From assembly GCA_022113835.1 (NCBI GenBank), contig JAILWY010000011.1, positions 1,922,001-1,986,000 on the forward strand: DNA of 64,000 nt, read 5' to 3'. The position numbers and the translations under genes are program-made. This DNA comes from Atopsyche davidsoni. Lineage: Eukaryota; Arthropoda; Insecta; Trichoptera; Hydrobiosidae. Numbering within the stretch: the first letter of the stretch is position 1; each line of letters starts with the position of its first letter. Shown one piece after another: positions 34,017-35,367 of the stretch. The notes under the pieces are model-generated. The model was not told the origin of the DNA. It ran no database searches and worked only from the letters and a program-made list of their open reading frames with translations.

Positions 34017-34130
34017 CTGTTGTGGAACTTATAGCGGCAGTCGTCCGCCGCCACGATGTCCATCAGTAAAATGTACTTGGCTCGTTTATCTAGACCGGAA
34101 ACGCGCACCTTGTAGGCAGGAAACATGCGC
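34017..34130 (-). CDS. bi: T-box exon, version B (alternative to the exon at 35254)
   Basis: Second version of the same T-box segment. Seen: minus-strand acceptor (CTTCCACAG) at 34131 and donor (CAG|GTACTA) at 34016 enclose exactly 114 bp with the same phases as the exon at 35254. The 37 codons read [37 protein letters not shown]. It differs from version A at 8 of 37 positions (R/Q, A/Q, Y/M, V/F, K/A, R/K, M/L, C/Y) and has no stop or frameshift. From memory this wording is closer to vertebrate TBX2/TBX3 than version A is. A CTGAC branch-point-like motif and a better pyrimidine tract precede the acceptor. Because 114 is divisible by three, including both exons would keep frame but would duplicate and wreck the T-box fold, so exclusive use is expected. 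A decayed duplicate is the other possibility, but intact splice sites and conservative substitutions argue against it. Confidence 0.9.
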
Positions 34131-35253
34131 CTGTGGAAGCAGACGAGATCTCGTCAGCGAGAGTGACTCTGGGTTGGCGGGAGGGAAGGGGGCGCACTCG
34201 CACCTGTGACCGATCGTTTGGGGTAGCCTTGCACCTGAGCCTGATCTAACCTGATCTTTCATACCAAGCAACTACGCTATAACCACAAAATAAAATAAAG
34301 CCTAACCTAACCTTATATTATTGATTTTTGTGAAGACAGTCTCACAGGAAGTACGATTTTGCCTATACAAGTTTGATTGAATGATAATGATTAAGTCCAT
34401 TTTTTCAAATATTGAAAATTGATTAAGTCATACAGATCACGATCAGATATTTTTCTAAGCGTTTCTTTAAACAATTTTCAATATTTGATAAAACGTACTC
34501 AATCATTATTAACCTAACCTTGGTTAAAAAATGATGCTATACTTACAAATGCAAGAAATGTGTACCCTAATATAATCTTACCTTGCAAGTGATCTAGCCT
34601 TACTTTGCAAACTAAAGTACTAATCTATCATTTTTTTGCATTTGATAATGATTAAAATCGTTTTTTTTTCAACCAAAATGTATCGCCAAGTAGCTGGAAA
34701 ATCATGAGCGCTTTTGCTTTTCAAAGTGAAATACTTGCTGTCTCTAAAAGCAGATAAATACGTGAATACCGAATAGTTACTGGCTTAAGCAATACTATAA
34801 ATTAACATCCAAAATAACTTTTATCTAAGTTTAAATTGGATATCAATTGTGTTGCTACGTGTGTAGTGCGCTTAAAGCCGGCTACACATGGCACCCTTTT
34901 ATTTCGGGTCCTTATTATGAATGCTTGAGGAAACAACGCAAAGAAGGTCTGTATTGGATAGTTACCAACTAACCGAATGGAAATTTACCTCATTTGCGTT
35001 ATTTACTTAAATCATCCCAAAATCAAGAGACGCCATTGGCTTACTGGAAGTTGTGTCGCTGCGTGTGTAGCCGACGGAGTGTCAACTAGTCTGATCTAAA
35101 AGTGTAGCAAACTAAGTCTAGTGTCGCATCGAGTAAGGGTACAGCAAACGAGGTCACACGGAGCGGAGAACAACAAAATCGGGGTGACATAATAAGGCGG
35201 GTGCACATGAACACAAGTCAAGGACAAGCTGCAGTCGGCCGCGTCTTCTGTAC
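34131..35253 (-). other. Intron separating the two alternative T-box exons
   Basis: 1,123 bp between exon A and exon B. It contains TTAGG-like runs (34300-34312, 34510-34521), a repeat shared with 26270-26440, and short copies of a GTGTGTAG-containing repeat near 34860 and 35055. I see no extra exon. If the exons are mutually exclusive, sequences enforcing the choice (competing RNA pairing or silencer sites) would be expected here or in the flanking introns. None is obvious by eye. Confidence 0.6.
34314..34510 (+). repeat. Interspersed repeat, second copy at 26270-26440
   Basis: Both copies share TTTTTGTGAAGAC near the start, a GATTTTGCCT-TACA-GTTT segment, the block ATATTTTTCTAAG-GTTTCTTT, then CAATTTTCAATATTTGA and ACTCAATCATTAT. 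The ATATTTTTCT-GTTTCTTT block also occurs in the arms of the tRNA-like inverted-repeat family, so the two families are probably related. It lies between the alternative T-box exons. Confidence 0.5.
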
Positions 35254-35367
35254 CTGTTGTGGAACTTATACCGATAGTCGTCCGCAGCCACGATGTCCAG
35301 CAGCAGGATGTACTTGGCCTTGGCGTCCAGCCCGGACACCCTGAACTTCATTTGGGGGAACATTTGC
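35254..35367 (-). CDS. bi: T-box exon, version A (Tbx2/3-class, optomotor-blind-like)
   Basis: Internal exon of a T-box transcription factor, a nuclear DNA-binding regulator. Seen: on the minus strand an acceptor (TTTCCAG) at 35368 and a donor (CAG|GTACAG) at 35253 bound 114 bp. One base completes a split codon, then come 37 codons and two bases of the next split codon (AG). The peptide starts [12 protein letters not shown], continues [18 protein letters not shown] and ends YRYKFHN, which is T-box core from the MFP strand to the KFHN segment. From family knowledge this wording fits the Tbx2/3 (omb/bifid) class, and I recall it as the fly-like version. Joining to the exon at 31092 restores N-S-R-W in frame. 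A second exon with the same length and phases lies 1.1 kb downstream at 34017, so the two are probably alternatives. The polypyrimidine tract before the acceptor is weak and acceptor-like copies lie just upstream. Exons for the start of the T-box were not found. Confidence 0.93.

Follow-up and report, generated by a model that had tools for sequence, protein, structure and literature searches.

Two versions of one T-box exon in the omb/bifid gene of Atopsyche davidsoni, a putative splice choice inside a DNA-binding domain

Does a single insect gene choose between two versions of a segment of its own DNA-binding domain? The question is raised by a stretch of 64,000 nucleotides of the Atopsyche davidsoni genome (positions 1922001-1986000 of contig JAILWY010000011.1, here C11), called the window below, in which two exons of equal length, A and B, code for the same part of a T-box. 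A preliminary description of the sequence had proposed that they are alternatives within one gene, chosen by mutually exclusive splicing. The reading that we consider probable is that of a single omb/bifid gene with A or B as alternative exons, B being the ancestral version and A derived from it by tandem duplication, under an exclusion that is regulatory and leaky.

The exon pair and its splice sites

The elements concerned are the following (window positions, all on the minus strand):
35254-35367, minus: exon A, the fly-omb-like version; 114 nt, equivalent to human TBX3 residues 131-167
34131-35253, minus: A-B intron, 1123 nt, GT-AG
34017-34130, minus: exon B, the TBX2/3-like and probably ancestral version; 114 nt, equivalent to human TBX3 residues 131-167
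31246-34016, minus: B-C intron, 2771 nt, GT-AG
31092-31245, minus: exon C, the common T-box exon after either A or B, ending in SDKHGF

Exons A and B share the same phase, with a first base G that closes a split codon and AG as the last two bases. They encode the same residue in 29 of 37 whole codons and differ in 32 of 114 bases (82 identical). Both the A to C and the B to C joins are in frame and free of stops. Thus the equal length, common phase, consensus sites, residue identity and in-frame joins to the exon at 31092 given in the preliminary description could be confirmed from the sequence, as could the eight differing T-box positions, which are exon positions 1, 5, 6, 8, 15, 16, 23 and 31. 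With a slash at the exon boundary, the acceptors read ...TTTCCAG/G for A and ...TTCCACAG/G for B, and the donors CAACAG/GTACAG and CAACAG/GTACTA, all being AG/GT sites. A qualification to be added is that both donors lack a G at +5, while the donor of exon C is GTAAGT (sites unscored). Donors of this kind are common in alternative exons, so that the weak +5 position is only suggestive of alternative splicing.

A 15-nt motif spanning the acceptor and start of exon A has, besides the reference, two partial copies on the minus strand, at 35413-35427 (80%) and 35517-35531 (87%, without CAGG), the whole group extending over 35360-35531. In addition, the first bases of exon A and the sequence before them contain a 28-nt repeat (79%), its copies 100 bp apart. 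The partial copies of the motif are possible decoy acceptors, or may be due to chance.

A single omb/bifid gene

The whole genome (370.7 Mb in 80 contigs) was scanned in six frames with the Pfam T-box profile. Both exons aligned to profile positions 26-64, A with an E value of 2.1e-8 and B with one of 3.0e-9, so the observation is not due to chance. On the minus strand of C11 the scan found, in this order, a T-box start exon (2015726-2015806), A, B, C and a next exon (1883506-1883664), i.e., A, B and the flanking T-box exons follow each other over about 130 kb. No second start exon and no second C appeared on this T-box stretch of C11, and within the window there were no further T-box exons. 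The remaining T-box matches in the genome were at C11:9.14M and on C12, C18 and C26.

Proteins of 19 relatives were also placed on 194 kb around the locus. This map adds (contig positions, minus strand):
2016076, minus: start codon of the omb gene
1883.2-1883.7 kb, minus: exons D and E
about 1871.9-1872.6 kb, minus: last exon

The introns measure 58,362 nt between the start exon (N) and A, 1123 between A and B, 2771 between B and C and 69,433 between C and D, so the A-B-C cluster sits between a 58-kb and a 69-kb intron. The forms N+A+C+D+E and N+B+C+D+E are both open, and the joins with A and B together or with neither exon also remain open through E; all four do so as a result of the exon length, 114 nt being divisible by three. 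The Pfam T-box was recovered in all four omb forms tried, split into two stretches in the form carrying both exons.

Around the T-box and on the same strand, a start MAYHPFLQLPRPTDFSVSSLLT and an end of the IEKMVNGLD type match omb proteins. Over 52 residues or more, exon C shows no difference from the omb of a moth (P0137), a beetle (P0257), a mayfly (P0207) and a locust (P0219). The nine best protein matches of the last exon were seven named beetles, the beetle-like P0328 and, in sixth place, a lacewing; for the N-terminal part of the gene fly proteins match first, and flies also match the last exon. When B+C was compared with the PDB (14 matches, none of them a TBX2 or TBX20 structure), human TBX3 came first (5.8e-55), followed by TBX5 (3.6e-36), TBX1 (2.5e-31) and T (5e-26). 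The gene belongs to the omb/Tbx2-3 subfamily rather than to those of TBX1, TBX5 or T, in agreement with the class originally assigned. Relatives were absent from viral contigs and genome contigs (one scan each) and from plasmids.

The window has other features as well. A tRNA-Thr (TGT) gene lies at 22213-22287 on the minus strand, inside the 69-kb C-D intron, and satellite-like tandem arrays, whose repeat unit measures about 105-130 bp and which in part form nested arrays of longer period, occupy 23417-24164 and 59523-60742 of the window. A GC-rich 10-bp minisatellite, GGGGAGGCTG, is present in 13 copies at 24249-24382 and is probably the source of the long open frames found there on both strands.

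Isoforms and joins in other insects

Proteins were searched with three queries. The first, the 89 aa of B+C (lengths about 49-156), returned 961 matches, and among the best 120 there were two insect predictions with A, then B, then C, a wasp (P0001) and a beetle (P0002). The former has extra residues between A and B and the latter lacks the end of B, so neither is a clean splice. The second compared exon A with full-length proteins; the best 120 of 202 matches were 94 with A only and 26 with A+B. The third, with exon B of a moth protein, returned among the best 120 of 1331 matches the same 26 A+B proteins plus 94 with B only. All entries are clusters at 90% identity, within which isoforms may hide.

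An exact exchange of A for B is seen in Lepidoptera, where computed NCBI records include numbered omb isoforms that differ only at A/B, by seven substitutions and no gaps:
Nymphalis io, X3/X4 (P0166/P0250), 541 aa, A-for-B swap
Achroia grisella, X6/X7 (P0157/P0248), 510 aa, A-for-B swap
Helicoverpa armigera, X6/X7 (P0158/P0270), 503 aa, A-for-B swap

RefSeq variant models of this kind normally rest on RNA-seq. Other isoform sets combine A+B and B-only forms (Danaus plexippus and Bicyclus anynana) or A+B and A-only forms exactly 38 aa apart (Solenopsis invicta and Maniola jurtina). In all of the 26 A+B clusters listed, A and B are exactly one Arg apart, as the split codons demand, and in 25 of them SRWMVAG follows directly. 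Such models make up 26 of the 120 A-bearing clusters listed and extend over four insect orders (Lepidoptera 16, Hymenoptera 6, Coleoptera 3 and one aphid, with orders assigned from the genus names).

A different kind of evidence is provided by six proteins on contigs of 2.2-4.6 kb from the source labelled 'lgn', which presumably stands for assemblies of public sequencing runs. A gene with introns of this size could not fit on contigs so short, and the proteins keep the frame through A-only joins (mosquito-, ant- and honeybee-like) or B-only joins (two aphid-like and one beetle-like). Among the matches listed, this source accounts for none of the 26 A+B rows, 5 of the 94 A-only rows (for P0187, as one source among others) and 7 of the 94 B-only rows, four of which (P0276, P0281, P0292 and P0329) match non-insects best. 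One of these A rows, P0148, was rejected as evidence of splicing, as it reads from A into an apparent intron.

What became of the mutually exclusive splicing originally claimed can now be stated. The exchange of one exon for the other stands, in the form of swap isoforms annotated in three Lepidoptera. Strict exclusion does not, since A+B models occur in four orders and neither the exon length nor the type of splice site forbids joining both.

Distribution and age of the two versions

Proteins with A only, with B only and with A followed by B were all found among those listed when other insects were checked for the pair, and the A/B pair is common to several insect orders rather than peculiar to this genome. 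The named carriers of A among the matches listed were all insects: flies, wasps, ants, bees, moths, the mayfly P0207 and the locust P0219. B-only proteins among the matches listed came, within insects, from moths, beetles, bugs, aphids, a lacewing and a katydid and, outside insects, from spiders, ticks, a horseshoe crab, a crab, acorn worms, echinoderms and vertebrates; every non-insect protein listed was B-only. No beetle appeared among the 94 A-only proteins listed, the beetle models being A+B (three, plus the short P0002) or B-only. These data, together with the PDB match, bear out the view that B resembles vertebrate TBX2/3 and A resembles fly omb.

Among the 214 full-length proteins listed, the A segment was identical to that of the window at 37 of 37 residues in 115 of 120 cases and the B segment in 1 of 120, counts that come from the best matches to each query and so favor closeness. 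In the Hymenoptera P0001, P0141 and P0143-P0147 exon B is more changed and A identical, as if constraint on B had been relaxed or redirected there. The aphid Rhopalosiphum padi (P0142) has a changed exon A (QMRFRVSGLNAKTKYILLQDIVASDD), and its A+B model extends three residues past B, with RYK ahead of NRW, which would fit the use of a different donor.

Within our genome, A and B differ synonymously in 11 of the 29 codons for shared residues and at 6 of 11 fourfold sites, and their flanks are little alike (13 of 50 positions upstream and 21 of 50 downstream), which would fit an old duplication. That the non-insect proteins listed are B-only suggests B as the ancestral version. With B in the non-insects listed and A in a mayfly, a locust and Holometabola, the duplication would date to the base of the winged insects or before, if the A of mayfly and locust shares its origin with the rest; the pair is thus probably as old as the winged insects. 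The distribution also suggests, as a lead, a loss of B in flies.

Residues changed in the DNA-binding domain

Exon position 1 corresponds to TBX3 residue 131, and the eight A/B differences fall at TBX3 131, 135, 136, 138, 145, 146, 153 and 161. At the first of them, where the motif GRRMFP has its second Arg (TBX3 R131), A carries Gln. The preceding Arg, R130, is the base-contacting residue; its split codon reads Arg with either exon, and A alters its neighbor. Among the matches listed, each of the 120 A segments has Q at position 1 and each of the 120 B segments has R, and the residue is Arg in the four alignable other T-box genes of this genome (L001, L002, L004/L006 and L005; the T-box loci on C26 and at C18:14.99M were left out of this comparison). 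The numbering was counted from Y163, H187 and P134 as named in two reports (PMC4625211, PMC11649972). The second of these describes a fetus that had ulnar-mammary syndrome and carried P134S, a change falling inside the A/B segment, and it locates P134 where the two T-box subdomains meet (PMC11649972). AlphaFold2 yielded no usable model for the A+B form (mean pLDDT 48.3, pTM 0.25) or for the A-only control (45.2 and 0.21), with no residue reaching 90 in either.

How the choice could be made

The usual means of enforcing exclusion have little place here. Including both exons causes no frame shift, 114 being a multiple of three; the A-B intron, of 1123 nt, is long enough for A to be spliced to B without a steric bar; and there is no U2/U12 mismatch, as all sites are GT-AG and no U12-type donor was seen by eye. 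We also looked for RNA pairing among three intron stretches, namely the A-B intron, the B-C intron and the last 2 kb before A, with three mononucleotide shuffles each. The longest stems of the intron pairs were of 17, 21 and 16 nt, against 13-17 in the shuffles. Only the AT-rich stem of 21 nt exceeded its own shuffles (17, 16 and 17), which do not keep base runs, and those of the other two pairs were not clearly above theirs. Intron pairing is not convincing as the mechanism. Because the steric, frame and U2/U12 explanations are unsupported and no more than one stem of three exceeded its shuffles in this crude pairing test, a trans-acting or leaky choice would be the likelier model. An mRNA with both exons keeps the reading frame, so that the exclusion is probably of a regulatory and leaky kind.

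Weighing the alternatives

The most serious alternative, which we judge unlikely but would not dismiss, is that A and B are not exclusive at all: B (or A) would be a cassette exon, with a real A+B mRNA and hence an Omb with a duplicated 38-residue core segment, which may be inactive, dominant-negative or a means of lowering Omb activity. The share of A+B models among the listed clusters, several of them numbered isoforms, speaks for it, as do the A+B forms beside A-only forms in Solenopsis and M. jurtina and the in-frame co-inclusion possible in our gene. However, several A+B entries are plain GenBank predictions, the segment belongs to the T-box core, where a tandem copy should not fold normally, and the 'lgn' contigs contain A-only and B-only joins but none with both, although the numbers are small and several of the B rows are non-insect. 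Considerably less probable is that the pair is a relic, an old duplication of which splicing in this lineage still uses just one version, in beetles probably B. The single-version beetle and beetle-like proteins listed are indeed all B-only (P0257, P0262, P0263, P0269, P0271, P0324 and P0328), and the flies listed are A-only. Yet a relic would have decayed, whereas exon A has intact splice sites, no stop and all 37 residues identical to the omb of flies, wasps, mayfly and locust.

That A and B belong to two adjacent T-box genes, or that the assembly duplicated one exon, has nothing in its favor besides the presence of two copies, and we give it practically no credence. The whole-genome T-box scan rules it out, as the stretch has a single start exon, a single C and a single T-box exon after it. 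The 32 differing bases and dissimilar flanks argue against it too, as does the same A-B order in the A+B models of other insects. Scan, exon map and joins together place both exons in one gene, as first described.

We return to the A-or-B choice in a single omb gene as the preferred reading. In its evolution, a tandem duplication of the exon in an early insect would have given rise to A, B retaining the residues seen across animals, and A would then have fixed residues of its own, most tellingly the Gln at the GRRMFP motif. The outcome would be a regulated A-or-B splice choice inside the omb T-box, perhaps with some A+B product. We infer that both exons are used in A. davidsoni, that the choice is regulated rather than random and that the two forms differ in function. 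More tentatively, and with some doubt, we suggest that a second DNA-binding version that predates the split of the winged insects was kept beside the first, the two serving over several hundred million years as a switch operated by splicing; that A, by replacing a nearly invariant Arg beside the DNA-binding face, lets the two forms read different sites or meet different partners; and that flies kept only A, half of the system.

Implications and comparison with known systems

In insects, omb acts in the patterning of wings, eyes and abdomen, with work in flies as the standard of reference. If the A/B choice is conserved, many insects, perhaps not flies, would have a splicing layer of omb control. 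One study states that the monomer site of T-box proteins had been regarded as the same in all animals, and reports exceptions in nematode T-box proteins (PMC4434323). A natural swap of eight T-box residues within one gene is a clean test of whether splicing tunes T-box target choice, and the isoform pairs of Lepidoptera make the switch testable from RNA-seq. In the literature on splicing and isoforms and on T-box DNA contacts that was searched, mostly outside subscription journals, we found no account of omb having a T-box exon in two versions. The accessible portion of a paper on wing genes of the pea aphid gives one bi/omb accession and does not mention the exon pair (PMC12247715).

Drosophila optomotor-blind (bifid) shares version A with our gene, as seen in Drosophila biarmipes P0165 and the omb of Scaptodrosophila P0232, but differs in that the fly proteins listed are A-only and no fly is found among the 94 B-only proteins within the best 120 of 1331 matches. 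Vertebrate TBX2 and TBX3 share version B, including R131, M153 and C161 in TBX3 numbering, and we know of no second version of the A/B exon in them. TBX3 does have a different T-box splice form, the +2a form with an insert of 20 residues in the e-e' loop (PMC4625211). Exons 18 and 18b of FOXP1 likewise alternate within the part of a transcription factor that binds DNA, although there the domain is a Forkhead and not a T-box, the gene is from vertebrates and a change of DNA preference has been reported.
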